A stretch of 64,000 bases of DNA from Rubrivivax sp. Its GTDB lineage: Bacteria; Pseudomonadota; Gammaproteobacteria; Burkholderiales; Burkholderiaceae_C. Under the pieces are notes generated by a model that worked only from the letters and a program-made list of their open reading frames with translations, was not told the DNA's origin and searched no databases. This document shows, one piece after another, positions 3,210 to 30,234 of this stretch. The stretch lies in the NCBI GenBank assembly GCA_027489455.1, contig JAIXZR010000136.1, positions 1-64,000 on the forward strand, in the 5' to 3' direction. Positions within the stretch are counted from its first letter, which is position 1. Every line of letters starts with the position of its first letter. Position numbers and translations under genes: made by a program.

Positions 3210-3226
3210 CCCGCCTGCGGCCGCCC

Positions 3227-5333: not shown

Positions 5334-5391
5334 GCCCAGGCTGCGTCAGCTTGGTGCGAGGGTGTGCGTGCTATTCTCATTCGAGCTCTGA

Positions 5392-6126
<735 letters not shown>

Positions 6127-6152
6127 GGCCAGGCAAGGCAGAAGGCGGCAAC

Positions 6153-6911
6153 GTGGACATCGCAGGCAAGGTATTCATCGTCACGGGCGGGGCTTCGGGG
6201 CTGGGCGAAGGCACGGCACGCATGCTGGCAGCGCACGGTGGCCTTGTCATCGTGGCCGATCTGCAGGAAGACCGCGGGCAGGCCGTGGCGGCCGACATCG
6301 GCGGCCGCTTCGTCAGATGCGACGTCAGTGCCGAGGCCGATGGTCAGGCGGCGGTGGCAGCAGCCACCGCGCTGGGCCCGCTCATGGGGCTGGTGAACTG
6401 CGCCGGCATCGCCCCGGCGGTCAAGACGGTGGGCCGTGACGGTGCGCACCCGCTGGCGGCCTTCACCAAGTGCATCAGCGTCAACCTGGTCGGCAGCTTC
6501 AACATGATCCGCCTGGCTGCCGAAGCCATGGCCAAGAACGCACCCGAAGCCACAGGCGAGCGCGGCGTGCTCATCAGCACCGCCAGCGTGGCCGCCTACG
6601 ACGGCCAGATCGGCCAGGCCGCCTACAGCGCCAGCAAGGGCGGCATCGTCGGCATGACGCTGCCGATTGCACGGGATCTGGCCCGCAACGGCATTCGCAA
6701 CATGACGATCGCTCCCGGCATCTTCGGCACGCCCATGCTGTTCGGCATGCCGCAAGACGTGCAGGACGCCCTGGCCGCGGGCGTGCCCTTCCCCAGCCGC
6801 CTGGGCACGCCGCAGGACTACGCCAAGCTGGTGAAGCACATCATCGAGAACGAGATGCTGAACGGCGAAGTGATCCGGCTGGACGGGGCCATCCGGCTGG
6901 CGCCGAAGTAG
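6153..6911 (+). CDS. SDR family oxidoreductase (3-hydroxyacyl-CoA dehydrogenase type-2-like; GTG start)
   Basis: [30 protein letters not shown]...[36 protein letters not shown]. Confidence 0.9.
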
Positions 6912-6965: not shown

Positions 6966-8384
6966 TCAGGCCACCGAGGCGCCGCCCACTGGGCCAGGCA
7001 CGAAGTCGAAGGCCACGCTCATGCGCACCCCTGGCGATGTGTATGGCGTCGTGCCGTGCCACATGTAGGCCGGGAAGAAGACGATGCGGCCTGGCTGGGG
7101 GTCGATGAAGCGTTCGGCCGAGGGCAACGGCACCAGCGGTATGCCGGGCTCGCCGAGCTTGAGCTGCCCTTGACCCGGGCCCAGGGCCGGCGGCGTTTCG
7201 ACGTAGCACGCGGAGGAGATCCATCCTTCCGGGTGAACATGGTTGACGTGCCGGCCGCCCGCCTGCATCCGGATGGACCAGCCGCCCTGGGTGGCAAAGC
7301 TGCCGCGGTTGCGGGCGCGCATGGGATCGCTGCCAGTCCCGAGCCGCCCCAGGTAGCGCCGCAACGGCGCGTCGATCGCCTGGGCCAGCGCCTGCGTGGC
7401 ACGGTGCGTCATCTGCAGGATGTTGGTGAGCTGCGAACCCTGCCGAACCGACTGCTGGAAAGGGTGGGTGCGGTACCGGTGTTCGCCATGCAGCATGCCG
7501 GCGAGCTCGGCCAGGTATTGGGCCAGGTCGTCCCATCCGGCAGGTGTTGCCAGCTCTTCCACCGCCACCAGGGCGTCGTAGTCGTAGAGCTGGCCGTACC
7601 GCGAGTCACCCATCAGCCGCCAGGCCGTGGCCAGCCGGGCCAGCGCATGCTGGTCCAGCGGCGCACGCGCGTGCAAAGCCGTGGCGATCTGCTCGGCGCG
7701 GCCCAGCTCGCCCAGGACGAGCAGCGCATCGATGCGCGCCAACTGGGTTGCCCCCCATTCGGGCGCAAGCGCTGTGGCACGCCGGGCCGCCGCCAAGGAG
7801 TCGCCAGGCAACCCGGCTTCCAGAGCTGCCTGTGCCAAGGCCAGCGCCAGGGTCACGTCGGCTGGCCGGTCCAAGGCAGCAGCCTGCAGCAGGCGCAGGG
7901 CCGCCGCCGCTTCGCCCACTTCCGAGAGCGTCTGCGCCTTCAGGACGATGAGACTGGCTTCCTGCGGGGCGCTCGCCAGTGCTGCATCGATGGGCCCCAG
8001 GGCTGCGGCCACGGCCCCGGTACGCATCCAGTGCAGCTGCGCCAAGTCACGAAGCGCATCGGCATACCGGGGGCGCCTGCGCAGCGCCTGTTCGTACAGG
8101 CCCTGTGCATCGTCCAGCCGGCCTTGGGCCTGTACGGCGCGAGCGCAGACCAGCCACGCCTCGGGCGCGTCCAGGCCCAGTTGCAAGGCACGTGAGGCTG
8201 CAGCCTCCGCCGCCGCTGCATGGCCGAAGTCGCCGAGGATGGCCGCCAGGTTATGGAAGGCCACCGCATTGCCAGGGTAGGCGGCAGTGATGGCCCGGTG
8301 CGCTGCTATCGCGGCGTCCCAGTGGCCTTGCTGCCTCAAGTCATCCGCTGCCCGCGTGGCTTCGCCAATGCCCGCCATGCGCAA
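6966..8384 (-). CDS. TPR protein with C-terminal 2OG-Fe(II) oxygenase domain
   Basis: TPR-like N-terminus; C-terminal GGWSIRMQAGGRHVNHVHPEGWISSACYVETP...RIVFFPAYMWHGTTPY...RMSVAFDFVP. Confidence 0.85.
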   Translation of the reverse strand: MRMAGIGEATRAADDLRQQGHWDAAIAAHRAITAAYPGNAVAFHNLAAILGDFGHAAAAEAAASRALQLGLDAPEAWLVCARAVQAQGRLDDAQGLYEQALRRRPRYADALRDLAQLHWMRTGAVAAALGPIDAALASAPQEASLIVLKAQTLSEVGEAAAALRLLQAAALDRPADVTLALALAQAALEAGLPGDSLAAARRATALAPEWGATQLARIDALLVLGELGRAEQIATALHARAPLDQHALARLATAWRLMGDSRYGQLYDYDALVAVEELATPAGWDDLAQYLAELAGMLHGEHRYRTHPFQQSVRQGSQLTNILQMTHRATQALAQAIDAPLRRYLGRLGTGSDPMRARNRGSFATQGGWSIRMQAGGRHVNHVHPEGWISSACYVETPPALGPGQGQLKLGEPGIPLVPLPSAERFIDPQPGRIVFFPAYMWHGTTPYTSPGVRMSVAFDFVPGPVGGASVA

Positions 8385-8425
8385 CTTCTCGAAATTGGTT
8401 CAGCGGGAATGGGCGATCGCCCGGC

Positions 8426-8755
8426 CTAGCGCCCGCTCGTCGAGCCAGTGCGCTGCTGCAGATCTTGCATCGTCTTGCGCGAGATCTCGCGTTCCAACTC
8501 CCACTGCGCCGCGGTCTTGCAGATGCGGGTGGGAATGAGCGAGCCCACAGGTCGCTCCTGCTTGCAGACCTTGCGGTCGGGGTCGGCTTCAGCCGCCTGC
8601 TGTCCCTTGGCGTTGGCCGCGGGCGTGGCGGGCGCGGCAGCGGCAGCAGGTGCGGCAGAGGCTGCCGCGGCCGGCGCGGTGGCAGCCGTGTTGGCCATGG
8701 CGGCAGCGGTTGCCAGCGACAGCAAGAGGCTCGCAAGGATGGGAAGGGTCTTCAT
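8426..8755 (-). CDS. Small secreted hypothetical protein (signal peptide, Ala/Pro linker, two-Cys C-terminal core)
   Basis: MKTLPILASLLLSLATAAAMANTAA...DPDRKVCKQERPVGSLIPTRICKTAAQWELEREISRKTMQDLQQRTG; 4-nt overlap with the upstream hydroxylase-sulfotransferase gene. Confidence 0.7.
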   Translation of the reverse strand: MKTLPILASLLLSLATAAAMANTAATAPAAAASAAPAAAAAPATPAANAKGQQAAEADPDRKVCKQERPVGSLIPTRICKTAAQWELEREISRKTMQDLQQRTGSTSGR

Positions 8756-10803
8756 GAGGCAATCGCTTCGTGGGTGGGTGGAAAGGGTGGCCGATGGCCG
8801 CGGTTGGACGGCGGCGGGGTGTCCTGCACCGCCTGCACGCCCTGCAGCGCTTCGCTGCCCGGCAAAGCCAGCAAACGGTCCCAGGTGCTCTGCAGCCCGC
8901 CCAGCACAGGCTCGATCAGGTCAGCATTCTTGCGCCACTTGCCCGGCATGGGCCGGGTCTGCGTGTACCTGGAAGGCGGCAGGGGCGAACCCACACGGCT
9001 GCGCAGGGCGTCGTCGAATGCCATGCCGGCGAAATCGCAGATGCGCTGAACGCTGTGCGCCGGGTCGGCCAGAAACGTGCTGTAGCTCAATGACATCCAC
9101 TGTGCTGCAGGCACGGCCTGCAGGTCGTCGAGAGCGATGCGGTTGGTCGTCTCCCACTGGAAGGCGGCGATCTCACCCAGCGACTTGCCGCGCAATGCAC
9201 GCCAGCCCGGGGGCAGGACGAGTGACCAGGGGCCGTCCCAGTCCGGCATCTTCGAATAGGTGACCCAGCCGCCGCTCTTCCAGGCTTCGATGATGCTGCT
9301 GAGGTTCTCGCGCGGGTCTCTCCACAGGAAAACGAAACGCGCGTCGGGGAACAGCCTGGCAAAGAACGGGATGCGCAATGCATTCTTGGGCGTCTTTTCG
9401 AGCAGGCGCAGTGCCTGCGCGTGCGCTGGCAGCGGCTGCTGCGCCGGGCCTTGCAGTCTCTCGATGAGGCGCCGCCGGACCTCGATGCCGATGTCGGGGG
9501 TGGCGTGATGGGCATCGACGCGGTTGTCGTCGATGCCCGGCGCGCCCGGCGAAAGGTGGTCGAAGCCTTCGACCAGCCAATGCGCTTCGCCGCCCACGGT
9601 CCAGAACTGTGGGGTGCAGGCCAGGGTCTCGAACAGCAAGGTGCTGCCCGACCGCGGCGCGGCCATGATGAACACGGGCTGCACAAGCTGGGGCGAAGGC
9701 GATACCGCGGGGGCCACCACGCGCGTGGTGCGGATGGAAGGCGCCGGGGCCGGCGATGGCGCCGGCGCAGGTGCGGACACCGGGGTTTGCACCGCAGCCG
9801 CAGCCGCAGCGGCGGGCACGTCGGGCACGGAGACACGCCCCGGCGCCGACGGCGCCAGCGCTGCCAGTTCGTCATTGAGGAGATAAGCCGCCACGCGCGA
9901 GCCCAGCACGCGCATGGCCGGTATGCGGTTGCTGCGCATGCAGAGCTTGTCGCCCCAGGGCCGCGTGACGTCGCGCAGCGCGCCGGCCAGGCGGCGGAAG
10001 TCGGCCAGGCCTTCGTTGCTGTCGCCATGCAGCAGCCACAGCTGCCGCCAATCTGCGCGGAAGCTGCGCAGCAGGCTCTGGAACTGCACCACGTCCGCCG
10101 GGCCACCGTCCCCCGCAGGGCTGGGCATGAGGTCGTCCGCCAGGTCTTGCAGCAGCTGATCCAGTTCAGCCGGGGGCATGACGCGATAGCTGTTGAACCG
10201 CTCCAGCGCCAGGGTCGAAACAGCACCCGGCCGGTAGGGCACGCTGCGCGGCGCCGGGCCGGTCTGTGCTTCTGCGGCCAGGTTCCAGAACGCGGCACTG
10301 CCAGACGTATCGGCCACCAGGTGGATGCGTTCATGGTCGGTGGCGTTCTCCACGCGGTGCAGCCGCCAGTTGTCGAACAGCCAGGCCTCGCCGGCGGCCA
10401 TGTGCACCACCTGATCGTCGCAATAGAAGCTCACGCCCGGCCGGGTGATCACGGGGATGTGCACCCGCACGCGCGAAAACCAGTGGTAGTTGGTGTCCAC
10501 GTGCTCGGGCACGCAGGCGCCGGGCGCCAGGCGCATCAGCCGCGAACGGCCCCAGACCACGCCGAAGCTCGTCAGCACTTGCTGGATGTACGGGCAGGCC
10601 GCCAGGTGCGGCGTCATCTGCATGTGGCCGCTGACCTCGTCGTTCTCGCCGCCGTCCACCGTGATGAGCCGGGCTGCCGTGTTGCCGGGAAACGAATTGG
10701 GATGGCTCGCCCAGGCCTCGGGCGGCAGGGCGCTGGCTTCATGGGCCAGGCGCTGTGCGTCGAAACGCAGGGGCAGGCGGATGAAAGGGACAGGCAGCTT
10801 CAA
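8752..10803 (-). CDS. Aspartyl/asparaginyl beta-hydroxylase-like / sulfotransferase fusion protein
   Basis: N-term HVDTNYHWFSRVRVHIPVITRPGVSFYCDDQVVHMAAGEAWLFDNWRLHRVENATDHERIHLVADT; C-term PVFIMAAPRSGSTLLFETLA (PAPS 5'-loop), LLEKTPKNALRIPF, FLWRDPRENLSS. TTG 10803 or an upstream start is possible. Confidence 0.85.
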   Translation of the reverse strand: MKLPVPFIRLPLRFDAQRLAHEASALPPEAWASHPNSFPGNTAARLITVDGGENDEVSGHMQMTPHLAACPYIQQVLTSFGVVWGRSRLMRLAPGACVPEHVDTNYHWFSRVRVHIPVITRPGVSFYCDDQVVHMAAGEAWLFDNWRLHRVENATDHERIHLVADTSGSAAFWNLAAEAQTGPAPRSVPYRPGAVSTLALERFNSYRVMPPAELDQLLQDLADDLMPSPAGDGGPADVVQFQSLLRSFRADWRQLWLLHGDSNEGLADFRRLAGALRDVTRPWGDKLCMRSNRIPAMRVLGSRVAAYLLNDELAALAPSAPGRVSVPDVPAAAAAAAVQTPVSAPAPAPSPAPAPSIRTTRVVAPAVSPSPQLVQPVFIMAAPRSGSTLLFETLACTPQFWTVGGEAHWLVEGFDHLSPGAPGIDDNRVDAHHATPDIGIEVRRRLIERLQGPAQQPLPAHAQALRLLEKTPKNALRIPFFARLFPDARFVFLWRDPRENLSSIIEAWKSGGWVTYSKMPDWDGPWSLVLPPGWRALRGKSLGEIAAFQWETTNRIALDDLQAVPAAQWMSLSYSTFLADPAHSVQRICDFAGMAFDDALRSRVGSPLPPSRYTQTRPMPGKWRKNADLIEPVLGGLQSTWDRLLALPGSEALQGVQAVQDTPPPSNRGHRPPFPPTHEAIAS

Positions 10804-12110
10804 GCAGGGTCTCCATGCACGGCGCTGGCGCCGAAGTCTCCCAGCGTTTCCTGCAGCGTACACACCGCCACGCGCTCGGCTTCGCTGAGATCCGGGTGCC
10901 AGACGTCGAAGATCATCACCACGCGGGTCTGGTCGCTGCCGTTCCTGGCTTCATGGGAATAGGTGTCGTCGAAAGCAACGACTTCGCCGAAGCGCCAGTG
11001 GTGCGGCTCGCCGGCCACGTGCAGCACGCAGTCGCGCGGCACGATCAGCGGCAGGTGGCAGACGACGCGGGTGTTGGTCACGCCATGGTGCGGCAGCAGG
11101 TGCGTACCGGGCCCCAGGGTGCTGAAAAGCACCTCGGGCCCGTGGCCGCGCACGCGGGCCAGCGGGAGTTGATCGATCGCCAGGATCGTCTGCGGGCAGC
11201 GGCTGGCGTTGACTTCGTTGCGTTGCCCGTGGCGGTAGAAGTAGTAGCCGTCCCAGCGGGCGGCAGCGCGGTCGCTGCGCAGGTAGCGCGCGGCCAGCTC
11301 GGGGCTGCTGAACACCTGCTCGCGTCCTGCATCCAGGCCCAGCACGGCCTGCAGCTCCGACAGGATGGCCGGGGCCTGTGCCTCGAGCTGTGCCACGCCG
11401 GGTATGCGCTGCTTGTCCAGATAGGGCGACTGCGGCAACCCGGGGAAAGCCATGCCGGTGGGCCTTTGCCGGCTGTCCTGCGGGGCGTAGGCGGCATCAC
11501 CCAGTTGCACGGCCACGAAGTTCGCCACGCGCTGCATGGCGGCACGGCCGAAGCGCTGAACCAGGGGTGCGTAGGCTTGCTCGCACAGTGCGCGCCGGTG
11601 CTGATCCACCAGCGCCATGGCGTGCTGCACGTCGGCCTGCAGCCCGGGCGGCGTGGACGCAGCGCTGAGCCAGCGGCCAGCTTGCTGCGCGGCACGGATG
11701 GCCCGGAAGTACTGCCGCGCAGCAGCGCCGGCATCGCCCGAGGCTTCCAGCAGGCGCGCATAGCCCAGGCGCGTGGCATACAGGCCAGGCTGGCGCTGCA
11801 GCACGTCGCTGTAGGTCTGAAGCGCGGCGGCGGTCTCACCCTGCGCCTGCTGCACCATGGCGAGGTGGTTCAGGCTCAGCACGTCTTCCGGCGCCGCGGC
11901 CAGGGCCGTGGCCAGGTGCGCGCGCGCCGATGCGGCGTCCCCGGCCCGCAGGGAAAGCACGGCCAGGGCGTTGCGCGCTTCCACGTGCGCAGGCTGCGCT
12001 TCGACGAGGGCCTGAAACAGCAACCGCGCTTCGTCCATGCGCCCGGATGCGAACAGGGCACGGGCCTGCCGCAGGGTCAGGTCTGCAACCGCCGGTTCAG
12101 CCGCGGCCAT
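10800..12110 (-). CDS. TPR protein with aspartyl/asparaginyl beta-hydroxylase domain
   Basis: TPR N-terminus; C-term FSTLGPGTHLLPHHGVTNTRVVCHLPLIVPRDCVLHVAGEPHHWRFGEVVAFDDTYSHEARNGSDQTRVVMIFDVWHPDLS. Confidence 0.88.
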   Translation of the reverse strand: MAAAEPAVADLTLRQARALFASGRMDEARLLFQALVEAQPAHVEARNALAVLSLRAGDAASARAHLATALAAAPEDVLSLNHLAMVQQAQGETAAALQTYSDVLQRQPGLYATRLGYARLLEASGDAGAAARQYFRAIRAAQQAGRWLSAASTPPGLQADVQHAMALVDQHRRALCEQAYAPLVQRFGRAAMQRVANFVAVQLGDAAYAPQDSRQRPTGMAFPGLPQSPYLDKQRIPGVAQLEAQAPAILSELQAVLGLDAGREQVFSSPELAARYLRSDRAAARWDGYYFYRHGQRNEVNASRCPQTILAIDQLPLARVRGHGPEVLFSTLGPGTHLLPHHGVTNTRVVCHLPLIVPRDCVLHVAGEPHHWRFGEVVAFDDTYSHEARNGSDQTRVVMIFDVWHPDLSEAERVAVCTLQETLGDFGASAVHGDPA

Positions 12111-12284
12111 GGCGGCCCTCCAGCGCTGCCGGGCCGGTGCAAAGCGCGATTTGCCAGACCTGGCAATGCAGGCCCATCGTGCGCTCGGTGCCACCCAAGC
12201 CACCCGCACGCTGCCTGGGGTCGAGCCCGTCGGTGCCCTTGGGCTGGTTGACGCCGTCGATGCGGCCGTTGCGCGTCACACCAT

Positions 12285-14126
12285 TCATGCCGTGTAGCCC
12301 CAGCGCTGGAGCAGATGCGCCACGTCGGCCTGCAGCGGCAGCAGATGCTGCTGGTAGCGACGCCAGCGGTCCACGGCGCTGCGGCTGACGGGGCGCACCA
12401 CCTGGTGGTAGCTGGGGGTGGCGATGTAGCCCTTGCTGAGTGCATGGCGCGCGGGGTGCAGCATCGCGTCGTGCCAGTCCAGCCCGCAGAAGCCCGCAAT
12501 GCGCCGGGCCTGCGGTTCGAAATCCGTCACGAAGTCTTCGTAGCAGACCTCCAGCACCTTGGGCTGCAGCACTTGGACCTGCTCGTACCAGAAGTCGAAG
12601 ATGCGGGCATAACCCCGCGCCAGGGTGGGCAGGTCGCGACACAGGCGCGCGTAGTCGGGCGCACGGAAGTGCTGGAAGTAGTTGCTCGTGATGACGTCGA
12701 AGGGGTGCCGGATGGCCAGCAGGATGGGCGCGTTCGGCCACAGGCGCTGAATGACCGGCAGGCGCAGCATGTTCAAGGGGTTCTTGTCCAGCAGGCGCTG
12801 GCCTGGCTCGAGCCGTACCTTGGTGCCCACCTGCGCCCAGTAATGCTGCCGCGCCATTTCCAGCTGCTCGGGCGTGGCATCGCCCAGTCCGGCCGGATAG
12901 TCCAGCCCCAGTTGCTGCAGCCGCTCCTGCGCGTCCAGCAGGAAACGCTGCTCGTCCATGGTTTGCAGGCCCGGGTGCGCGTCGAGCATCTGCTCCAGCA
13001 GCGTGGTGCCAGAACGCGGGAACGCGACGATGAACACCGGGCTCTCCTGCAGCGTCGGCGGCACGGGCTCGTGCCAGCGCGCCACGTCGGGAGGGCGGGC
13101 ACCCCGGGCGGTAACGCCCAGGGCGTCCACGGGGTTCGCAGGGCCTGCGGCGGCCGTCGGGGCCGTCACGTCGAAGCCCAGCATCTGCGAGACATGGGCG
13201 GCGGTTGCGGCTTCGAAGGCGTCGTCGTAGAGCCCCGCTGCGTCCAGCGCCTTGGCCAGCGGGAAAAGCGCCTCCTGGCGCGATTCCGGCGACAGCCCAC
13301 GGGCCAGCATCTCGCGGTACAGCGCGATGGCCTGCGCATGCTGTTCGTTGCGGGCGGCAATCTGGGCCTGCAGCCCCAACCAGCGCAACTGCACTTCAGG
13401 CGCCAAATCGCGCAGGGGCAGCCGCTGCAGCCTGGCCACGCGGGCCGTGGCCTCGTCGATGCGATTGGTGCGCTCGAGCATGGTGATCACGCCCATCTCG
13501 ACTTCGGGCGGGTTGTCTTCCGCCGGGGTCAGGCGCTCGAGGATGCCCAGCGCCGCAGCCTGGTCGCCCACCGTCAGCAAAAGCATGCCCATGGCCGCCA
13601 GCCTCTCGGCCGTCCAGCCTTCCCAGTGCTGCCAGCCCGCCAGCGCGTCGCGCAAGGCCGCGGGCTCGCCGCTTTGCATCAGCAGCTGGGCATAGAAACA
13701 CCCGATCTCGGAATCAACCGGCCAGTAGGTGATGGCCTGCGCCAGCTGGTCGCGCGCCTGCTTGAACCGGCCTTGCTGCAAGGCAAGAAGCGCCGTGTTG
13801 TAGAGCAGGTCAGGCGTCCAGCCACCCAGCGCTGCAGCGCGCTCGTAGCCCTGCAGCGCGGCATCCAGGCGCCCGGCCGCGCGCTCGGCCGTGGCCAGGT
13901 TCATCCAGTGCACCGGCTCGCCTGGCTGCAGCTGTGTCAAAGCACGGAAGGCGTCCGCCGCCAAGGCGTAGCGCCCGAGCGCGCTCATCACCACGCCCCA
14001 GGCCAGCACGGCTTCGGGCTCGCGCGGGTCGGCGCGGTAAGCCTGGCTGGCCAGCTGTTCTGCACTGCCGAAGTCGCCCTGCTGGGCTGCGATCAGCGCA
14101 TGGCTGGCGAAAGTTCTTGCGTCCAT
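12285..14126 (-). CDS. TPR-sulfotransferase family protein
   Basis: TPR N-terminus; C-term PVFIVAFPRSGTTLLEQMLDAHPGLQTMDEQRFLLDA...LLDKNPLNMLRLPVIQRLWPNAPILLAIRHPFDVITSNYFQ. Confidence 0.88.
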   Translation of the reverse strand: MDARTFASHALIAAQQGDFGSAEQLASQAYRADPREPEAVLAWGVVMSALGRYALAADAFRALTQLQPGEPVHWMNLATAERAAGRLDAALQGYERAAALGGWTPDLLYNTALLALQQGRFKQARDQLAQAITYWPVDSEIGCFYAQLLMQSGEPAALRDALAGWQHWEGWTAERLAAMGMLLLTVGDQAAALGILERLTPAEDNPPEVEMGVITMLERTNRIDEATARVARLQRLPLRDLAPEVQLRWLGLQAQIAARNEQHAQAIALYREMLARGLSPESRQEALFPLAKALDAAGLYDDAFEAATAAHVSQMLGFDVTAPTAAAGPANPVDALGVTARGARPPDVARWHEPVPPTLQESPVFIVAFPRSGTTLLEQMLDAHPGLQTMDEQRFLLDAQERLQQLGLDYPAGLGDATPEQLEMARQHYWAQVGTKVRLEPGQRLLDKNPLNMLRLPVIQRLWPNAPILLAIRHPFDVITSNYFQHFRAPDYARLCRDLPTLARGYARIFDFWYEQVQVLQPKVLEVCYEDFVTDFEPQARRIAGFCGLDWHDAMLHPARHALSKGYIATPSYHQVVRPVSRSAVDRWRRYQQHLLPLQADVAHLLQRWGYTA

Positions 14127-14127
14127 G

Positions 14128-14159
14128 AAAAAAGGGCCGGCAAAACTTGCACGGCCCTT
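14128..14159 (-). terminator. Rho-independent terminator/attenuator after TBDR1
   Basis: Minus strand AAGGGCCGTGCAAGTTTTGCCGGCCCTTTTTTC: hairpin plus U-tract, abutting the ATG (14126) of the next gene. Confidence 0.75.
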
Positions 14160-14182
14160 GGATCCTAGCGGACCAGGAAAGG

Positions 14183-17008
14183 TCAGAAGCTCTGTTCGAC
14201 GCGGAAGAACCAGCGACGGCCGATGGTGTCGTAGGTCTGCACGTCGACGTTGCCGTTGGTCTGGAACTGATAGGCCAGCGGCGGCTGCTTGTCAGCAACG
14301 TTGTTGACGCCCAGGATCATCTTCGTGTTGCCGAACATCTTCATGTTGTAGGACACGGCCAGATCGTGGTACGTCACCGCGGCCTGCTGGACGAGGATGA
14401 TGCCGCCCGAGGTATCGCCGAAGTTGGAGTCAGCGCTGTTGCTGATGGTCGACTTCGCGATGTGCCGCGCCGACCACTGCACGCCAAAGTCGCCCATGGA
14501 CCAACCCACCTGGCTGGTGGCGCGCAGCTTGGCGAAGTTGCCGTAGCTGGGGTCCAGGCTACCGGCGGCTTCCGTGACCTTGCCGCCACCCAGGTCGTAC
14601 TTGAAGCTGTTCGTGCGAGCCAGGTCCAGACCCACCTGGAAGCGCCCGAAGCTGGTCGGCGGCAGGATGTACTTCACCGAGACGTCCACGCCATCGGTTT
14701 CGATGAACCCGGCATTCAGGTTCGCCAGCCCGATGTTGATGATCTGCCCGGTGCCGGGATCGCGCCGGATACGGTTGCAGAAGGCGTCGCTCGGCGCAGT
14801 CAGGCAGGTCTGCGCGATGACCGTGGGGTCACCCGCAGTGATGGCCTGGTTCAGGCGATACCGCCAGTAGTCGGCCGTGACCGAAAAGCCGCGCAGCAGG
14901 CTGGAGTCGTAGACGAAGCCCAGCGTCGAGACCGTGCCTTCCTCGGGGCTCAGGCTGGGGTTGCCACCCAGGAAGCCCAGGATCTGCGAGTTGGCTTGGC
15001 GGTAGCCGCTGTTGGGCGGGATGAACTGGCAGGCACGCGAATAGCCGGGTTCGCTGCCCGTGGCCGCGCGGCAGGGGTCGATGAAGGTCGGGAAGCTGCC
15101 TTGTTGCGTGGCGAAGCGGTCGCTGATCGTGGGCGCGCGGAAAACTTCAGACCATGTGCCGCGGAACAGCAGGTCGGTGATGGGGCGGTACTCGAGCTTG
15201 AGCGAGCTGTTGGTCGTGTCGCCGAAGCTGTCGAAGTTCGAGAAGCGTGTGCCCAGGGTCAGGTTCAGGGCCTTCACGCCGGGCATGTTGCTCAGCAGAG
15301 GGATGAACAGTTCGCCGAACACTTCCTTGACCTCTTCCGACCCCGACGTAGGCCCGCTGCAGGTCTCGGCGGCCAGCAGGCAGGAAGAGAAGCTGGGCGG
15401 CGTGTACAGCGTCAGGGCGTCGATGCGCGAGTTCAGCCAACCCCGGCGCCAGCTGGCGCCCACGGCAGCCTGGGCCGTGCCACCGGACCACTTGAACGCG
15501 TCGCCCGTCAGGATGCCTTCGACGGTGCGCTGGTTGGTGGTGAAGAAGTTGGTGTAGCCCACCGAGAAAGGCCGCAGGCCTGCCAGCGATGCCTGGCCGA
15601 TCGGCGAGTCGGGCGTGACGTTGAAGACGTTGAAGGCATCGCGGTTCAGTGCGCCCTGCAGCAGGCCCTGGTTGATGTAGCCATCGACGCTGGAGTTCTG
15701 CTTGGTGCCCTGGTAGGTGTAAGACGCGTCCCAGGTCCAGCTGGTGCCCGGGATACTGCCGCGCAGGCCGGTGGTCACCTGCGTCAGCGAGGTTTCCGTC
15801 ACCGACAAGCGGGTGCCCAAGTCAACGGGCCGGAACTGAAGGTTGGTGCCCACCGCTCCGCCGGCACTGGTGGCACCGAAGGAGATGCCGAACGGGTTGT
15901 TCGTGCTGGTGGCAAAGCCGTCGTTGTTGGCCACCAGCGGCAACGGCGCGATCTGGAAGCCCGACTTGGTGTTGTTGTGCAGCGCGGTGGCGTACATCTC
16001 CACGGCGTCATGGATGTTGTAGGCCGCATCCAGGAACACGCTGCCACGCTCCTGCGGCGTCAAGGCCAGGTTCAGCGGCTGGTAGTCGTAGGCGTCGGTG
16101 GCGCTGTTGTAGCAGCGGAAGTCCGCCAGCGACGTGCCAGCGGCACCCGTGCGGCGCGTGAGTACCTGGCTGCCACCCGTGCCGCAGCCGAACTGCGCGC
16201 GCGCGGTCACGCCGTTGGGCAGCACGGTGGTGCTCGGCAGGGTGATGCGGCCCTGCGGGGTTGAGCTGGAGCCCAGCTTCAGGATGTTGACGGCACCGTC
16301 ATAGGTGTACCAGTACAGCGCGCTCTTGGAGAACTCCCGGTCACCGGACTTGACCTCGCTTTGCTTGTTGTAGTTCAGCCCCACCGCAATGCGGCCGCGA
16401 TCGGTGGACAGGCCAAAGCTCAGCTCGACAGCCTGGGTCTTGGCGTCGCCACGGCTGGAACGGCCGGTCTGATAGCCAATGTTGACGCCGTTGACGTCCT
16501 TGCGCGTGATGATGTTGACCACGCCGCCAATGGCGTCGGAACCGTAGGTCGCACCCGCGCCTTGCTTGAGGATGTCGACGCGATCAATCAGGTTCAGCGG
16601 GATCGAGTTGACGTCGAAGCTGGCACCCAGACGGCGCCCATCCAGCAGCGTGAGGGTGCGCTCGGAACCCAGGCCACGCAGAGAGATGGTGGACGCGCCG
16701 TCGCCGCCACCGTTGTTGACCTGCGGGTTGGTGGCAGCACCGGCGATGGAAGGCAGCGCCTGCAGGAGTTCGCCAATGCTGGCGACACCCGAGGTCTGGA
16801 TCTGGTCGCGGCTGACAGTCTGCACTGGCGAGGCGGTCTCCGCCTCGATGCGACGAACGCGCGAGCCGGTGATCTCCACACGCTGACCAGTGCTCGTCGC
16901 AGCCTGCGCGGCCGCGGGGGCTGGCGTCTGAGCGTGCACCGGCAACATCATTGCGCCGCCCAAAGCGGCCAATACCGCTGAGCAAACCTTGGTCCTTGTG
17001 AAAGCCAT
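14183..17008 (-). CDS. TonB-dependent receptor (TBDR1)
   Basis: MAFTRTKVCSAVLAALGGAMMLPVHAQ signal; VEITGSRVRRIEAETASPVQTVSRDQIQTSGVASIGELLQALPSIAG plug; RRWFFRVEQSF C-terminus. Confidence 0.93.
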   Translation of the reverse strand: MAFTRTKVCSAVLAALGGAMMLPVHAQTPAPAAAQAATSTGQRVEITGSRVRRIEAETASPVQTVSRDQIQTSGVASIGELLQALPSIAGAATNPQVNNGGGDGASTISLRGLGSERTLTLLDGRRLGASFDVNSIPLNLIDRVDILKQGAGATYGSDAIGGVVNIITRKDVNGVNIGYQTGRSSRGDAKTQAVELSFGLSTDRGRIAVGLNYNKQSEVKSGDREFSKSALYWYTYDGAVNILKLGSSSTPQGRITLPSTTVLPNGVTARAQFGCGTGGSQVLTRRTGAAGTSLADFRCYNSATDAYDYQPLNLALTPQERGSVFLDAAYNIHDAVEMYATALHNNTKSGFQIAPLPLVANNDGFATSTNNPFGISFGATSAGGAVGTNLQFRPVDLGTRLSVTETSLTQVTTGLRGSIPGTSWTWDASYTYQGTKQNSSVDGYINQGLLQGALNRDAFNVFNVTPDSPIGQASLAGLRPFSVGYTNFFTTNQRTVEGILTGDAFKWSGGTAQAAVGASWRRGWLNSRIDALTLYTPPSFSSCLLAAETCSGPTSGSEEVKEVFGELFIPLLSNMPGVKALNLTLGTRFSNFDSFGDTTNSSLKLEYRPITDLLFRGTWSEVFRAPTISDRFATQQGSFPTFIDPCRAATGSEPGYSRACQFIPPNSGYRQANSQILGFLGGNPSLSPEEGTVSTLGFVYDSSLLRGFSVTADYWRYRLNQAITAGDPTVIAQTCLTAPSDAFCNRIRRDPGTGQIINIGLANLNAGFIETDGVDVSVKYILPPTSFGRFQVGLDLARTNSFKYDLGGGKVTEAAGSLDPSYGNFAKLRATSQVGWSMGDFGVQWSARHIAKSTISNSADSNFGDTSGGIILVQQAAVTYHDLAVSYNMKMFGNTKMILGVNNVADKQPPLAYQFQTNGNVDVQTYDTIGRRWFFRVEQSF

Positions 17009-17331
17009 CTCGAAAACTCCTGGAAAGATAGGGATCAGAGCCAAACGCGCAGGTGCCAAGGCCGCTGCACACGCCATCTGCATTCTCAGTGGCGCACCGT
17101 GCTCTGGCTCAAGGTTTACCCGGTTTGGCCGGCGTTACCCATGTTTTCTGTAGGACAAGTTGCGCCAGTGCGACAGGTTTCGCGACATGTCCTCTGGCAG
17201 TCGAGCTTGCACTGGCGACCGCCGAGCTCTGGCCTGCCTGCCGTCGATGCCCAGGCTGGTGCCTAACCCGGGGGAGCTCCTGCCCGCGTTGGCCCGATGC
17301 CTGCCCTGGAGCCATCACCGGCCCATGCTTG

Positions 17332-18729
17332 TCAGGCCGGGGCGATGTCAAAAGCAATGGTCAGCCGCGGATCGGCACCACTGAACGGTTCGGTGCCATG
17401 CCACATGTAGGAAGGAAACAGCACGACCCATCCCGGTTCGGGCCGCACCCAGTGCTCAGCGGGCAGGGCTTCTCGCAGCGCGAGACCCGGGCGGCCGAAA
17501 CGCAACCAGCCTTCGCGGCCACCGGCGATGACTGCGCCCGGCAGCTCGATGTAGCAGGCCGATGAGATCCACCCGTCCTGGTGCACATGGTCGACGTGGT
17601 AGCCGCCAGGCCGCAGCCAGATCGACCAGCTGCCGACCAGCGCCACGCGCCCGCTGTTGCGCGAGCAAAGAGGCCCGGGCCCCTGCCCTATCTGGGAAAG
17701 ATAAGTCTCTAGCGGCCCGGTGATCGATTGGGGAAAGGCGGCCAACGCCGGGCTCGTGCGGCGCAAGACGTCCGGCAGCTGGCTGCCCTGGCGCAGGGAA
17801 TGGCCAAACGGATGGGTTCTGAACGGATGGGCCGCCTTCAGCTCCGCGGCGAGCGAAGACACGTAGGCCGGCAGGCTCTCCCATCCCGGCGGCACCGCCA
17901 GCGGTTGGGCGCGGACGAATCGTTCGTAGTCGTACAGATCGCGATAGCGCGGGTCGCCCGTCATGCGCCAGGCCACGGCCAGCATGGCCAGCAGATGCTG
18001 GTTGCGTGGGCTCTGGCGGAGCAAGGGCTCCAGGATCCGGGCCGCTCCCGGCGCATCCCCGACAACGAGCCTGGCACGCGCCAGCGCCTCGAGGGCCCCC
18101 GGTTCTTTGGGCGCGTTGTCGACCCCGCGAGCGGCAAAGTCCAGCGCATCCTGTCCACGGCCCAGCTCCGCGCTCAGGTGCGCGGCATAGGCGAGCACGG
18201 CCGACGGGCAGTGCTGATGTGCAGTCTGACTCTGCAGGGCCCGCAGTGCAGCTTCGGCATCCCCCATGAATTCCAGCGCCTGCGCCTTGACCATGGAAAG
18301 CAAGGGATCAGCGCCCCGCTGGCTCAGGGCGGCTTCCAGGCCAGCCAGCGCCTGCTGCCGGTCGCCAGTCGTCATCCAGGTGAGTTGCGCTGCTTCGAAC
18401 TGCGCGGCCAGGGTGTTGGGCTGCCGTCGTAGCACTTCGCGATAGGCGCGGCGCGCAGCGTCGACCTGTCCGCGCCCCTGCTCGGCACGGGCCAGCACGA
18501 GCCAGGTTTCCGGCGCGTCCAGGCCGGTGCGCAAGGCCCGGCTGGCGATCTGGGCCGATTCGGCGTGCCGGCCCAGATCCCCCAGCAGGGCGGCCAGGTT
18601 GTGCAGCGCGATGCCACTGCCCGGGTACCGCTGGACTGCCCGCCCGTACAGGGCCAGCGCCTCGTCCGGACGTCCACGGGCCTTCAGCTGCTCGGCTTCA
18701 AGGAGGAAGGCGTCAAGGGATTCCAGCAT
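17332..18729 (-). CDS. TPR protein with C-terminal 2OG-Fe(II) oxygenase domain (paralogue of 6966..8384)
   Basis: GSWSIWLRPGGYHVDHVHQDGWISSACYIELPG...WVVLFPSYMWHGTEPF...RLTIAFDIAP; start at MLESLDAFLLEAEQLKARG. Confidence 0.86.
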   Translation of the reverse strand: MLESLDAFLLEAEQLKARGRPDEALALYGRAVQRYPGSGIALHNLAALLGDLGRHAESAQIASRALRTGLDAPETWLVLARAEQGRGQVDAARRAYREVLRRQPNTLAAQFEAAQLTWMTTGDRQQALAGLEAALSQRGADPLLSMVKAQALEFMGDAEAALRALQSQTAHQHCPSAVLAYAAHLSAELGRGQDALDFAARGVDNAPKEPGALEALARARLVVGDAPGAARILEPLLRQSPRNQHLLAMLAVAWRMTGDPRYRDLYDYERFVRAQPLAVPPGWESLPAYVSSLAAELKAAHPFRTHPFGHSLRQGSQLPDVLRRTSPALAAFPQSITGPLETYLSQIGQGPGPLCSRNSGRVALVGSWSIWLRPGGYHVDHVHQDGWISSACYIELPGAVIAGGREGWLRFGRPGLALREALPAEHWVRPEPGWVVLFPSYMWHGTEPFSGADPRLTIAFDIAPA

Positions 18730-18760
18730 GCAAGGCCTCGAACGATCGCAACGCAGCCAC

Positions 18761-18793
18761 AAAAAAAGGCGGCGGCCCTTGCGGGCCGCCGCC
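18761..18793 (-). terminator. Rho-independent terminator after TBDR2
   Basis: Perfect 11-bp arms GGCGGCGGCCC/GGGCCGCCGCC, 4-nt loop, 7-T tract on minus strand. Confidence 0.88.
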
Positions 18794-18818
18794 TTGTCCA
18801 GCAGGTACTGACAGGTGC

Positions 18819-21710
18819 TTAGAAGCGGCCGTTCAGACCCACGTAGTAGCGGCGGCCCAGCACATCGTACAGCGACGGGTCGGTGTTGGCCTGCACGTTG
18901 GGCGAGTAGATGCGGGGCTTCTGGTCGGTCAGGTTCGACACGCCAGCACGCAGCGTCAGGCTCTTCGTCAGGTTGTAGGCCACAGCCACGTCGTGGTACC
19001 ACGTCGCTGCCACACCGGTGTTGGTCAGCGGCGAGCTGCCCGTGACGGTGTTGGCGTGCACCATCTTGTCGATGAAGCGGTTCGTCAACGACACGTTCAG
19101 GTCACCCCAGGTGTACGACGTGCCGAAGTTGACGCGCCACTTCGGGGTCGACGAACCCGTCGTGCTGCCAATCGTGCCGGCGAAGTCGTTCACCGGATCC
19201 ACCGACGTCGTCTGCGAGGTGTACTTGTCGGTGTACGTCGCATTGACGTTGAACCGCACCTTGCCGTACTGCTGCAGGCCCAGCGCGTAATCGACGCCCA
19301 GGTCGATACCCGAAACCTTCGTCTGCGCCTGGTTGCGCGACAGCTGCGCCAGGTTGATGATGCCGCCGTTGTTGACATCCCGGCGGAACAGCGAGCACCA
19401 CTGGTTGTTGATGTCGAAGGTCGGGTTGGCACCGTCGCGGTTGTAGCAGCGCTCGATGATGGTCGTCGCGCCCACTGCGGCGATCACGTCCTCCAGCTCG
19501 ATCGACCAGAAGTCGATCGTTGCCGAGAGGTCGCGCACCGGCTGCAGTGCGATACCGGCCGTGAACGACTTCGACTTCTCCGGGCCCAGGCCCGGGTTGC
19601 CGCCGACGAGGCCGGTGGCCTGGCCGGAAGGCTGCACGTAGCTGGCGCCACCGGCAACCACCGACTGCGCGCGGCACAGTGCCAGCACTTGGGCGGCATT
19701 GGGGCCGTTACGGAAACGGGCCGCAATGGTGCCGGACGTGTTGCAGGGGTCACCGCCCGTGATGTTGGGGAAGTTGTTCAGCTGCGGGTCAAACAGCTCG
19801 TTGACGTTGGGCGAGCGGATGGCCGTCTGGTAGCCGCCGCGGAAGCGCACCATGTCGTTGGCCGTCCAGTCCAGCGTCGCCTTGTAGCTGGAATCGTTGC
19901 CGGTGATACTGCTGTCCGTCGTGCGGGCACCCAGCGTCAGGGACAACTTCTTGGCAAAGGCCTGGTTGCTCAGGATGGGAATCACCGCTTCGGTGAAGAC
20001 ATCCTTGAAGCGCAGGCCGCCCTTGACCGGCAGTTGCTCGTTGAAGCCTGCCACCTGGCCCGGCTGCAGGCCGGAGTCCGGCTTGAAGTCGAACGACAGA
20101 TCACGGTAGGCAGCACCCACGACGATGTCGAGCGAACCGGCGGGCAGCTTGGCCACCGGGCCGGTCGCCGTGGCTTCCACCACGCGCTGGATGACGGTCG
20201 TCAGGTTCTTGGCTTCCAGGCTGATGTAAGCCCGGCAGGCATCCGACAGCACCGAGTCACCGAAGGGGTTGAAGCCGCCAGCGCAGAGGGTGCGGCCGCC
20301 GTCGGCAGCGTCGATCAGGGCCTGCACGCGCGGGATGCGGACGTTGCCACCCTGAATTTCGGTCTGCACCGACCGGCCATAGCTGCCGTAGACGTCGTAC
20401 GACCAGCCATCGATCAGCCCGATGTCGCCGGTGGCGCCAGCCACACCTTGCCAAACGTCGTGGTTGTTGGTGCTGGTACGGCCACCCAGCGCGTTGAAGC
20501 GCTTGCTGAACGCCACCGTGGCCGTGGGGTTGGTGCGGCCGGCCAGCAGCTGGCGCGCCTGGGCGCTGAGGAAGGGGTTGGTCACCGGCACGAAGAAGCC
20601 AGTGGTGCCGCCGGCCGGCGTCGGGGCCAGCTGGGATTGGGCGTTGTAGTTGGTGAACTGGAAGCTGGCGTAGGGCCGGAAGTTGTTGTTGACCTCGTAG
20701 TTCACGCTCGAGTAGGCCGTCCAGCGCTCTTGCGGCAGCACCAGCAGGTTGTCGGGCTCGAAGTTGTACGAGAAGAAGTCAGGGAAGAACGCCGTGGCGA
20801 TGTCGCTCGTGGGGCCGCGGTAGTTGACGGCGTCGCGCGGGGTGCCAGCGACACCCGTGCAGAACAGGGTGCCGTCGGGGTTGAAGCCGAAGCCGGTGCT
20901 GCCGCCGTTGGTGTTGCAACGGTCGGCGCCGAAGATCGCGTCCACCGTCGCTTGCGTGGGCGTGTTGGCGCCGACGGAGATCGAGCCGCCGGGGAAGGTA
21001 CCGGTGGCCGTGCTGGCCTGGGCCGCGAAGTCGCGGGCGCCCTTGTAGATCGGGTCACGCTTGAAGTAGCCGCCGCCGAACACGGCCGAGCCACGGCCGC
21101 CGTCGAAGGTGCTGCCCAGGGTGATGGACGCGGAAGTCTCCTTGCCGTCGTTCTTCTCGGTCCAGCGGTGCTGGGCGTCGAGCTCGACGCCAGTGAAGTT
21201 CCGCTTCATGATGAAGTTCACCACGCCGGCCACGGCGTCGGCGCCGTACACGGTGGCCGCGCCGCCGGTGATGACTTCGACGCGTTCGATCAGCGACGTC
21301 GGGATGGTGTTGACGTCAACGACGCCGCCACCCGTGGAGCCCATGCCCCGCTTGCCGTTGATCAGCACCAGGTTGCGGCCAGATCCCAGACCACGCAGGT
21401 CGATGAAGGCACGGCCGTTGGAAGACGGGTTGTTCGACTGCGAGCTCAGCGCCGGCGTCACCTGCGGCAGCGTGTTCAGGAACTGCTCGACGGTGACCAC
21501 ACCGCTCTTCTGAATCTGGTCAGCGGTGACGGTGACGATGGGGCTTTCGGCGAGTGCATCGATACGGGCAATGCGCGAGCCCGTCACGGTGATGGTCTGC
21601 GCCGGGGCTGCGGTGGCAGCCTGCTGCGCGAACGCGGGAGCCGAGCCCATCGCTGCGGCGCCGCCCAGCGCGAGCAGCACCCCGCTGTAAACCTTGGATT
21701 TCTTAAACAT
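18819..21710 (-). CDS. TonB-dependent receptor (TBDR2)
   Basis: MFKKSKVYSGVLLALGGAAAMGSAPAFAQQ signal; ITVTGSRIARIDALAESPIVTVTADQIQKSGVVTVEQFLNTLPQVTPALSSQSNNPSSNGRAFIDLRGLG; RRYYVGLNGRF C-terminus. Confidence 0.94.
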   Translation of the reverse strand: MFKKSKVYSGVLLALGGAAAMGSAPAFAQQAATAAPAQTITVTGSRIARIDALAESPIVTVTADQIQKSGVVTVEQFLNTLPQVTPALSSQSNNPSSNGRAFIDLRGLGSGRNLVLINGKRGMGSTGGGVVDVNTIPTSLIERVEVITGGAATVYGADAVAGVVNFIMKRNFTGVELDAQHRWTEKNDGKETSASITLGSTFDGGRGSAVFGGGYFKRDPIYKGARDFAAQASTATGTFPGGSISVGANTPTQATVDAIFGADRCNTNGGSTGFGFNPDGTLFCTGVAGTPRDAVNYRGPTSDIATAFFPDFFSYNFEPDNLLVLPQERWTAYSSVNYEVNNNFRPYASFQFTNYNAQSQLAPTPAGGTTGFFVPVTNPFLSAQARQLLAGRTNPTATVAFSKRFNALGGRTSTNNHDVWQGVAGATGDIGLIDGWSYDVYGSYGRSVQTEIQGGNVRIPRVQALIDAADGGRTLCAGGFNPFGDSVLSDACRAYISLEAKNLTTVIQRVVEATATGPVAKLPAGSLDIVVGAAYRDLSFDFKPDSGLQPGQVAGFNEQLPVKGGLRFKDVFTEAVIPILSNQAFAKKLSLTLGARTTDSSITGNDSSYKATLDWTANDMVRFRGGYQTAIRSPNVNELFDPQLNNFPNITGGDPCNTSGTIAARFRNGPNAAQVLALCRAQSVVAGGASYVQPSGQATGLVGGNPGLGPEKSKSFTAGIALQPVRDLSATIDFWSIELEDVIAAVGATTIIERCYNRDGANPTFDINNQWCSLFRRDVNNGGIINLAQLSRNQAQTKVSGIDLGVDYALGLQQYGKVRFNVNATYTDKYTSQTTSVDPVNDFAGTIGSTTGSSTPKWRVNFGTSYTWGDLNVSLTNRFIDKMVHANTVTGSSPLTNTGVAATWYHDVAVAYNLTKSLTLRAGVSNLTDQKPRIYSPNVQANTDPSLYDVLGRRYYVGLNGRF

Positions 21711-22107: not shown

Positions 22108-23976
22108 TCAGGGGAGTGCCAGACGGGGCACGGCCGCCATCAGATCGCGCGTGTAGGCCTGCTGGGGCCGGGCCAGGACATCGGCGCACCAGCCCTCCTC
22201 TTCGACGCGACCGTTCTTCATCACGGCCACGCGGTCGGCGATGTATTGCACCACCGCCATGTTGTGGGTGATGAACAGATAGGACACGCCCAGCTCGCGC
22301 TGCAGTTCGCGCAGCAGGTTCAGGATCTGCGCCTGCACCGACACATCCAGCGCCGATGTCGGCTCGTCGCAGACGATCAGCCGCGGTTGCACCGCCAGCG
22401 CGCGGGCAATCGCGATGCGCTGGCGCTGGCCGCCAGAGAACTCATGCGGGAAGCGCGCCAGCGCGTCACGGCGCAGGCCCACCTGATCCGCCAGCGCCTG
22501 CACGCGCTGCAGGCGTTCGCCCGCGCCCAGCTCGGGCTGCAGTGCGGCCAGGCCTTCCTGCAGCAGTTCGCCGACGCGCAGTCGCGGATTGAGCGACGCG
22601 AAAGGGTCCTGGAAGATGATCTGCACCTGGCGCCGCGCGGCCTGCAGCGCCGCGCCCTGTAGCGCGAACAGGTCCTGCCCTTCCAGCAGCGCGCGGCCAC
22701 GCACGTCGGCCAGGCGCCGCATCAGCTGCACGATCGCCTTGCCGGTGGTGGTCTTGCCGCAGCCGCTTTCGCCCACCAGGGCCAGGGTCTGGCCCGGCGC
22801 GACCTGGAAGGACACGTCCCGCACGGCGTGGAAGTGGCCGCTGACGCGCTGCAGCAGGCCGCTGCGGATCGGGAAGCTGACGCACAGGCCCTGCACATCC
22901 AGCAGCGGCAGCCCTTGGGCAACGGTGGTCTGCCCGGCCGCCAGCCCTGCGGCGGGGGCCCCGGCGGCGGGCGCCGCAGGCCGGCGTGCAGGGGCCTGCG
23001 GCTCGGCCATCGGCAGCCAGCAGCGCACCTCGTGCTGCCCGGCCAGCGCCTGCACCGGCGGCAGTTCACCGCTACACCGGGGCAGCGCCTGGCCGCAGCG
23101 CGGCGCGAAGCGGCAGCCTTCGAACCGCTGCCACAGCGGTGGCACGGTGCCTGCGATGGCTTCCAGCGCCTGGCCGCGGCGTGCGCTTTCGGGCAGCGCC
23201 CGCAGCAACGCCTGGGCATAGGGGTGACGGGGGGCGTGGAAGAAGTCCCGGGCACGGGCCACTTCCACGATCTGCCCGGCGTACATCAGGGCCACGCGCT
23301 GGGCCATCTGGGACACCACTGCCAGATCGTGGGTGATGAGCAGGAGCCCCAGACCCTGTTCGCGCTGCAGTTCGCGCAACAGGTCCAGGATCTGCGCTTG
23401 GATCGTCACGTCCAGCGCGGTGGTGGGCTCGTCGGCGACCAGGAAATCCGGCTCCGCTGCCAGCGTCATGGCGATCATCACGCGCTGCTTTTGCCCGCCG
23501 CTCATGCGGAAGGGGTAGTCGGCCATGCGGCGCTCGGGCTCGGGGATGCCCACGCGCTGCAGCCAGTGCAGGGCCTTGGCGCGGGCCGCGCTGCCACGCA
23601 ATGCGGTGTGGGTCTCGATGGCCTCGACGATCTGGTCGCCCACGCGCATCACCGGGTTCAGGCTGGTGCCAGGCTCCTGAAAGATCATGCCGATGCGGCG
23701 CCCGCGAATGCGGCGCATGCCGTGCTCCGGCAGGCCCAGCAGATCGAGCGCTGGCGCCCCTGCATCGCCCGCCAGCGTGATGTCGCCCGCCACCACATTG
23801 CCGTTGTCGGGCAAGAGGCGCAACAGGGCCAGGGCCGTCATGCTCTTGCCGCAGCCGCTCTCGCCCACCAGGGCAAAGGTCTCGCCGCGTTCGATAGCCA
23901 GGCTCAGGCCGTCGATGGCGCGCACGATGCCGGTATCGGCGTCCAGCTCCACTTGCAGGGCGTCGATCTTCAGCAT
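22108..23976 (-). CDS. Peptide ABC transporter, fused double ATP-binding protein (YejF/Dpp type)
   Basis: Two Walker A ([30 protein letters not shown]) and two signature motifs ([28 protein letters not shown]). Confidence 0.94.
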
Positions 23977-23977
23977 C

Positions 23978-26415: not shown

Positions 26416-26425
26416 GGCGCTTGCA

Positions 26426-28663: not shown

Positions 28664-30234
<1,571 letters not shown>

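Follow-up and report, generated by a model that had tools for sequence, protein, structure and literature searches.

A minus-strand gene block at positions 6966–21710 of a 64,000-nucleotide stretch of Rubrivivax sp. DNA (assembly GCA_027489455.1, contig JAIXZR010000136.1; hereafter the window) contains a conserved five-gene core, the cassette. It encodes a TonB-dependent receptor (TBDR1), a sulfotransferase with an arm of tetratricopeptide repeats (TPR-ST), a TPR-bearing aspartyl/asparaginyl β-hydroxylase-like protein (TPR-AspH), a hydroxylase–sulfotransferase fusion (AspH-ST) and a small secreted protein (SP). On balance, this core probably works in the cytoplasm, adding hydroxyl and O-linked sulfate groups to a co-encoded envelope polypeptide that is later exported. 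We established its gene content, its conserved order, the grouping of its receptors in a single clade, the relatedness of its enzymes and the conservation of their catalytic residues. An initial annotation had assigned all eight genes of the block, including a second receptor (TBDR2) and two TPR oxygenases dependent on 2-oxoglutarate (2OG), to one modification system. The observation itself is confirmed, with Pfam supporting the named domains gene by gene, and the interpretation is partly supported.

Conservation was followed through the fusion gene. The window's own copy was the only full-length fusion in 300 genomes drawn from the order, and 299 genomes drawn from the family gave three (in the source genome G000, G550 and G317). 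These three sequences were aligned, and the alignment was used for one scan of genome contigs, which returned 184 fusion relatives. The best 80 of the 184, aligned across most of the query, define the loci described here. Genes were called with a simple codon model and labeled by profiles whose seeds were proteins of the window and of the loci. The loci are selected via the fusion, many reach contig ends, and the fusion open reading frame (ORF) was callable in 78 of 80. The initial annotation had staked its reading on co-conservation around the fusion, and the order TBDR, TPR-ST, TPR-AspH, AspH-ST, SP indeed recurs across three groups, Burkholderiales, Nevskiaceae and Steroidobacteraceae. The modal position relative to the fusion was −1 for TPR-AspH (17 loci), −3 for TPR-ST (14) and −4 for the TBDR (14; n = 78 callable loci), and this recurrence indicates that the arrangement is not chance. 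On the opposite strand, the modal neighbors were C5, a short 2OG oxygenase (Pfam 2OG-FeII_Oxy_3), at −2 (15) and ST2, a second sulfotransferase type labeled by sequence reading without a Pfam match, at +1 (13). Within six genes of the fusion lay TPR-ST in 25 loci, a TBDR in 23, TPR-AspH in 20, and ST2 and C5 in 19 each. Hydroxylase/sulfotransferase pairs recur as the fusion, as TPR-AspH with TPR-ST, and as a solo AspH with ST2 in relatives. Coordinates show 4-nt overlaps between the TPR-AspH and fusion genes and between the fusion and SP genes. By a stated rule, the 80 loci divide into 19 with the cassette, 7 with a β-helix neighbor, 19 of Xanthomonadales type, 33 others and 2 uncalled.

The eight-gene block as one conserved unit is rejected, because just 3 of 78 loci have an OG5 (2OG-FeII_Oxy_5) gene no more than six genes from the fusion and TBDR2 is a separate paralog. 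The two TPR–2OG oxygenases and TBDR2 are add-ons in this window, and the Ideonella loci carry no OG5-labeled gene at the 6966–8378 position. Co-conservation proposed for the block thus holds for the core five genes and fails for the OG5 genes and TBDR2. The closest named relatives at the locus belong to the genus Ideonella. The flanking genes at 410–1714 and 2784–6911 also adjoin the cassette in two other loci (L049 and L050), which indicates that the cassette site is common to relatives and not a recent insertion.

TPR-AspH has a TPR arm followed by a double-stranded β-helix oxygenase and is closest by sequence and fold to human AspH, the enzyme that β-hydroxylates Asp and Asn in epidermal growth factor (EGF)-like domains. 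In a PDB profile search, human AspH was the best solved oxygenase relative over the oxygenase region (7e-52), with TPR-only chains scoring higher, as expected; the single-sequence match gave 1.7e-27. A tree of 44 oxygenase rows, built on 158 columns with a long human branch and a bootstrap that had not settled, groups TPR-AspH with human AspH (99/97) and places the LpxO and OlsC rows apart. These lipid-hydroxylase rows comprised six full-length matches to the LpxO model (one above its cut-off) and one OlsC above its cut-off. The window and Ideonella proteins joined (96/93) with that of L051 beside them (82/93), and deeper forks are open. For the AlphaFold2 model (pLDDT 94.2), the top ten Foldseek matches were all human AspH, the best (6.1e-20) being 8re6, a structure that pairs AspH with a peptide of Factor X. 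Superposition on TPR-oxygenase structures of AspH covered 444 aligned columns with an overall TM of ~0.44 and an rmsd of 17, indicating that the two domains lie at a different angle than in human AspH; the oxygenase domain alone gave a TMt of 0.80 against 5apa. The two His ligands, the Gly that replaces the carboxylate and the 2OG-binding Arg are kept, as seen at H341 (23/24), G343 (24/24), R348 (23/24), H386 (23/24) and R396 (23/24). In the human enzyme, the residues named are His679/His725 and Arg688/R735 (PMC6817910). Unlike human AspH, TPR-AspH is bacterial, shows no signal or membrane anchor and lies in an operon with sulfotransferases. One contig piece (L105:2-11800) carries a dense array of TPR-ST, TPR-2OG, TPR-AspH, AspH-ST and solo AspH genes without a TBDR, and R replaces the first iron-binding His in its TPR-AspH.

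TPR-ST is related to the tyrosylprotein sulfotransferases (TPSTs), which were its best solved sulfotransferase matches (2e-29 to 3e-26; 5e-17 in a further PDB search). It shares with TPST1 and TPST2 the PRSGTT motif that binds 3′-phosphoadenosine-5′-phosphosulfate (PAPS), a Glu where the catalytic base stands, and conserved Lys and Ser. It differs in an extra TPR arm of ~280 residues, and its acceptor may or may not be Tyr. Conserved positions are R371 (98/99), G373 (99/99), E392 (99/99), K448 (97/99), S481 (94/99) and S572 (97/99). E392, which aligns with the catalytic Glu of TPST2 (presumably Glu99), is Glu in every sequence. Adenosine 5′-phosphosulfate (APS) kinase was found in 10 of 10 genomes examined, therefore PAPS can be made. 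The initial annotation took the TPR domains to suggest a polypeptide substrate; the relatedness of TPR-AspH to AspH, not LpxO/OlsC, and of TPR-ST to TPSTs strengthens that idea. TPR-ST genes occurred in 57 of 232 class genomes searched, and no viral copies were found. In other Gammaproteobacteria (L137–L192), TPR-ST genes sometimes adjoin very large proteins that look secreted by eye (L171, 2296 aa; L180, 1474 aa; L148, 1344 aa).

In the fusion, both active sites are conserved among 80 homologs, with hydroxylase residues H101 and D103 kept in 79 and H149 and R159 in all 80, and sulfotransferase residues R384, E406 and S503 in all 80. Its structure model (pLDDT 87.5) has a low-confidence linker at residues 319–366, and its folds resemble proline cis-4-hydroxylase and TPST2/Ols/CurM by Foldseek. 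Longer fusions occur in metagenome-assembled genomes labeled Acidobacteria, Chthoniobacteraceae, Acidimicrobiia and others, taxon labels that may be wrong. A secreted β-helix protein often adjoins the longer fusion (cluster c11, nine members: eight scan loci and G317, which is L045), and β-helix proteins also lie beside the fusion of L083. These neighbors are again suggestive of exported proteins as substrates. As a separate observation, loci in which β-helix/CSLREA-like secreted proteins stand beside the fusion come from distant phyla and are L075, L076, L094, L095, L099, L100, L110, L122, L045 and L083; some of these proteins have IPTL-type C-termini by sequence reading. The L075 fusion has an extra C-terminal DUF4915 domain.

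The cassette receptors form a single group. In a tree of 52 TBDRs, of a quick kind and with several long-branched outer rows, the 15 cassette TBDRs are one clade (SH-aLRT 100). TBDR1 of the window lies beside Ideonella, then Hydrocarboniphaga and Solimonas, while TBDR2 is placed elsewhere with two receptors lying near other cassettes. The pairing of window and Ideonella in both this tree and that of TPR-AspH speaks for co-divergence of the cassette genes. Alignment against 12 other TBDRs showed that all 15 cassette TBDRs share a C-x6-C loop with the consensus CLLAxETC. It is also present in the receptor of L149 and absent from the remaining 11. The L149 receptor is the nearest outside receptor; a C5 gene separates it from a TPR-ST, two genes away. 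The third residue past the second loop Cys is D in seven, N in five and P in three of the cassette TBDRs, and the EGF-type hydroxylation motif that was tried occurs in none of the 15. TBDR1-like receptors (E < 1e-180) occur in 4 of 276 class genomes, the source genome included. That of G735 adjoins a TPR-ST and a 2OG gene; those of G612 and G836, two loci only, have no CLLAxETC-type loop and no AspH or sulfotransferase gene in the fetched flanks.

SP has an N-terminal signal-like segment (by reading), an Ala/Pro-rich linker and a C-terminal core with two Cys and a C-x-T motif. The initial annotation's view of this 109-aa protein as a partner is borne out by conservation, as homologs directly follow the fusion in seven other loci (L049, L050, L051, L053, L054, L055 and L058). 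Related copies stand beside solo AspH/ST2 genes in L055, L057, L058, L065 and L066; another adjoins a second TPR-AspH in L054, and one in L061 lies three genes away from an AspH/ST pair. In total there are 15 distinct matches in 12 loci, 14 of which adjoin an AspH or sulfotransferase gene, the other being three genes off. The 56 TPR-ST comparison loci contain no match. Two Cys and one Thr are invariant in 14 aligned rows, all of which have E, D or N as the third residue past the first Cys. Among ten genomes scanned, the seven with a cassette, the source genome included, each have one strong SP copy, at the cassette; the three non-cassette genomes have none or a weak match. Although conserved and co-encoded like a peptide precursor, SP gave no definable core, leader or cleavage site.

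From these features we infer an activity, a substrate, an order of steps, a compartment and a physiological role for the cassette. AspH-type oxygenases hydroxylate side chains with the help of 2OG, O2 and Fe(II), and sulfotransferases of the TPST kind transfer sulfate from PAPS onto a hydroxyl. The enzymes are probably cytoplasmic, since no export signal was seen in them by reading. An AspH-type enzyme would hydroxylate side chains of an exported polypeptide in the cytoplasm, and a sulfotransferase would then O-sulfate it; the freshly made hydroxyl itself may be the acceptor. The main reason for placing the enzymes in sequence is that their pairing recurs, including in one fused chain. The modified protein would leave by the general secretion route and serve the receptor, where it may shape ligand binding or act as a partner. 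We give SP an about even chance of being the substrate. The C-x6-C loop region of TBDR1 is a possible, more doubtful candidate, and some other substrate seems unlikely. What draws attention to the loop and to SP with its two Cys is that human AspH requires of its substrate just one ring closed by a disulfide (PMC6817910).

The cassette offers defined candidate substrates and deletable genes for finding out whether proteins on bacterial surfaces bear hydroxyl and sulfate marks, and, if the proposal is true, it would assign a role to some of the many TPR-sulfotransferase genes. Hydroxylation of the AspH type and sulfation of the TPST type have been studied as modifications of animal secreted proteins. 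A bolder version, which we think rather improbable, makes the cassette a bacterial counterpart of the animal endoplasmic reticulum/Golgi route, in which an AspH- and TPST-type tandem would put sulfated hydroxy-residues on both SP and the receptor C-x6-C loop, giving a chemically marked pair. Candidate sites would be the D/N/P past the second Cys of the TBDR loop and the E/D/N past the first Cys of SP.

Several observations weigh against a cassette that modifies its own envelope polypeptide. Human AspH substrates need a disulfide, which a reducing cytoplasm would not favor. The C-x6-C loop marks one clade, and phylogeny alone could explain its pattern. The window SP contains no Tyr and therefore cannot be a substrate for tyrosine sulfation, which is excluded for this protein. 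SP-like cores also occur in 5 other genomes (E 4e-10 to 2e-5; 6 of 276 class genomes match), none adjacent to AspH or sulfotransferase genes; with strong matches all at cassettes and weak ones elsewhere, the close SP family belongs to the cassette and looser kin lie outside. In 19 of the 80 loci the fusion is surrounded by a housekeeping neighborhood of Xanthomonadales type without a cassette, 5 of the 19 having a TBDR within six genes. The fusion hydroxylase domain is nearest to L-proline cis-4-hydroxylase, an enzyme acting on a free amino acid, and the sulfotransferase domain matches the CurM and Ols sulfotransferases at least as well as TPST. TPR-ST genes also often occur with no TBDR nearby. 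The comparison set took the best TPR-ST match from each of 56 non-own genomes, four loci having no called TPR-ST. A TBDR is the immediate neighbor in 8 of 52 loci and farther off in 3, whereas 41 have none in the fetched stretch; with 12 TBDRs among 576 genes, ~2 adjacent would be expected. The link is therefore real yet not general, and the TBDR as a general partner of TPR-ST genes is only partly true. Activity, mass shift and modified site are all predictions from sequence.

The best named NCBIfam models for TPR-AspH are OlsC (5.2e-24) and LpxO (1.5e-19), and this hint underlies a reading in which the AspH domains, which share the Pfam family Asp_Arg_Hydrox with these enzymes, act on acyl chains and the sulfotransferases sulfate a hydroxylated lipid or glycan. 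We consider this improbable. Neither match comes near its curated cut-off (85 of 450 bits for OlsC, 70 of 500 bits for LpxO), and the TPR-oxygenase architecture matches AspH. An identity as lipid A or ornithine-lipid hydroxylase is further weakened by the tree, subject to its long human branch and unsettled bootstrap, as LpxO and OlsC fall outside the group of TPR-AspH and human AspH. Lower still we place the chance that there is no functional unit, i.e., that drift brought several envelope-linked genes side by side in genomes rich in TBDRs. Genes of the TPR-ST and AspH types abound, as do TBDRs (18 Plug matches in the source genome), but order and strand are fixed in three family-level groups, with 4-nt overlaps and one receptor clade, which disfavors drift.

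An import-side role is unlikely, though the least so of these rivals. TBDR1 and an ATP-binding cassette (ABC) importer would take up a peptide, which cytoplasmic enzymes would hydroxylate or sulfate for detoxification or use, with peptidase S66 trimming it. Its weight comes from a peptide ABC importer that adjoins the cassette in three arrangements: the SBP_bac_5/permease/ABC set lies upstream in the window and Ideonella, where S66 adjoins it; downstream in Solimonas (L053), Nevskia (L068) and partly Hydrocarboniphaga (L051); and upstream in L112 and partly L074. However, the Steroidobacteraceae cassettes, most of the set, have no such importer in the flanks examined, dedicated AspH- and TPST-like enzymes with TPR arms would be unusual for peptide catabolism, and SP is left unexplained. 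The same importer could instead retake a metallophore or signal made from SP, which would be hydroxylated, sulfated, released and recovered through TBDR1 like a ribosomal siderophore. β-Hydroxy-Asp is an Fe(III) ligand, and SP, modification enzymes, receptor and peptide importer lie in one stretch. A related combination appears in Table 2 of a source covering Pontixanthobacter (PMC10040529), which lists a lasso peptide B2 protein, two sulfotransferases and an aspartyl β-hydroxylase; the nearly consecutive cluster numbers, from which we take adjacency, suggest a sulfated, hydroxylated lasso peptide. This listing also hints independently in favor of the main reading, modification of a co-encoded polypeptide. 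We regard the metallophore or signal as a poor prospect for the cassette: SP has a signal-like segment but no recognizable leader/core or dedicated exporter, its metal ligands are inconspicuous, and the importer is not constant. The window also differs from lasso clusters in that no lasso synthetase genes were noticed in the stretch. No maturation protease or exporter of the type serving ribosomally synthesized and post-translationally modified peptides was noticed among the labeled genes, with no search aimed at them; the importer and S66 are present.

No paper describing the cassette was found in a literature search that left most subscription papers outside its coverage. An earlier prediction may stand in Iyer et al. 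2010, on the comparative genomics of peptide-modifying dioxygenases. To our knowledge, bacterial sulfation of an exported protein is represented mainly by RaxX. In Xanthomonas, the TPST-like RaxST acts on this co-encoded small exported protein (PMC6637879). The rax cluster, likened here by description only, is described in that source as RaxX and RaxST together with a pair for type I secretion, with no hydroxylase or TBDR, unlike the cassette.

Table 1. Features of the modification locus and adjoining genes in the window.
Feature	Position	Strand	Basis or remark
TPR + 2OG-FeII_Oxy_5 oxygenase, add-on gene	6966..8378	-	Pfam 5.6e-19 (ORF 6966-8384)
SP, small secreted protein, 109 aa	8426..8755	-	No Pfam family; candidate substrate or partner
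AspH-ST fusion, 683 aa	8752..10803	-	Pfam Asp_Arg_Hydrox 2.7e-16 + Sulfotransfer_3 1.9e-25
TPR-AspH, aspartyl/asparaginyl β-hydroxylase-like	10800..12110	-	Pfam TPR + Asp_Arg_Hydrox 2.8e-41 (ORF 10800-12209)
TPR-ST, TPST-like sulfotransferase	12285..14126	-	Pfam TPR + Sulfotransfer_3 2.6e-35
TBDR1, ortholog of cassette receptor	14183..17083	-	Pfam Plug + TonB barrel; TBDR tree
TBDR1 segment with cassette-specific C-x6-C loop PSFSSCLLAAETCS, candidate modification site	15356..15397	-	TBDR alignment
TPR + 2OG-FeII_Oxy_5 oxygenase, add-on gene	17332..18729	-	Pfam 3.5e-21 (ORF 17332-19002)
TBDR2, separate paralog	18819..21710	-	Pfam Plug + TonB barrel; TBDR tree
Oligopeptide-type ABC importer	22108..28660	-	SBP_bac_5 PF00496 8.5e-43; remaining labels by sequence reading
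Peptidase S66, LD-carboxypeptidase family	28664..29584	-	Pfam; NCBIfam PRK11253 307 bits, below 378-bit cut-off

The window belongs to contig C12 of G000, in an assembly of 4.47 Mb in 315 contigs (completeness 90.7, contamination 7.4). Chosen gene starts, every one a prediction, are 18729, 16951 or 17083, 12110, 10803 (TTG) and 8378. The motif HVDHVH that the initial annotation read in the TPR–2OG oxygenases is correct for the gene at 17332–18729, while the gene at 6966–8378 reads HVNHVH. Its block end at 21710 does not hold, since further genes follow on this strand, namely a dual-domain ABC ATPase (22108–23976), two permeases (23978–26415), an SBP_bac_5 protein (26426–28660) and S66 (Pfam); the ATPase and permease labels are sequence readings, not family matches. 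No sigma-70 promoter-like sites were found, and the eight terminator-like sites are at background level (8.2 in shuffled sequence). One strong stem, at 18795–18766, lies between TBDR2 and the TPR–2OG gene.

The Xanthomonadales-type loci (L078–L125) have the fusion alone, sometimes in two adjacent copies, amid a stable set of neighbors that resemble thiC, tolC and pcm by reading; the five with a nearby TBDR are Pseudoxanthomonas. In the window, a tRNA-Ser (30764–30853) lies just past the S66/importer operon and is followed by an ORF at 30983–32218 that resembles, by sequence reading, the tyrosine integrase of a genomic island.

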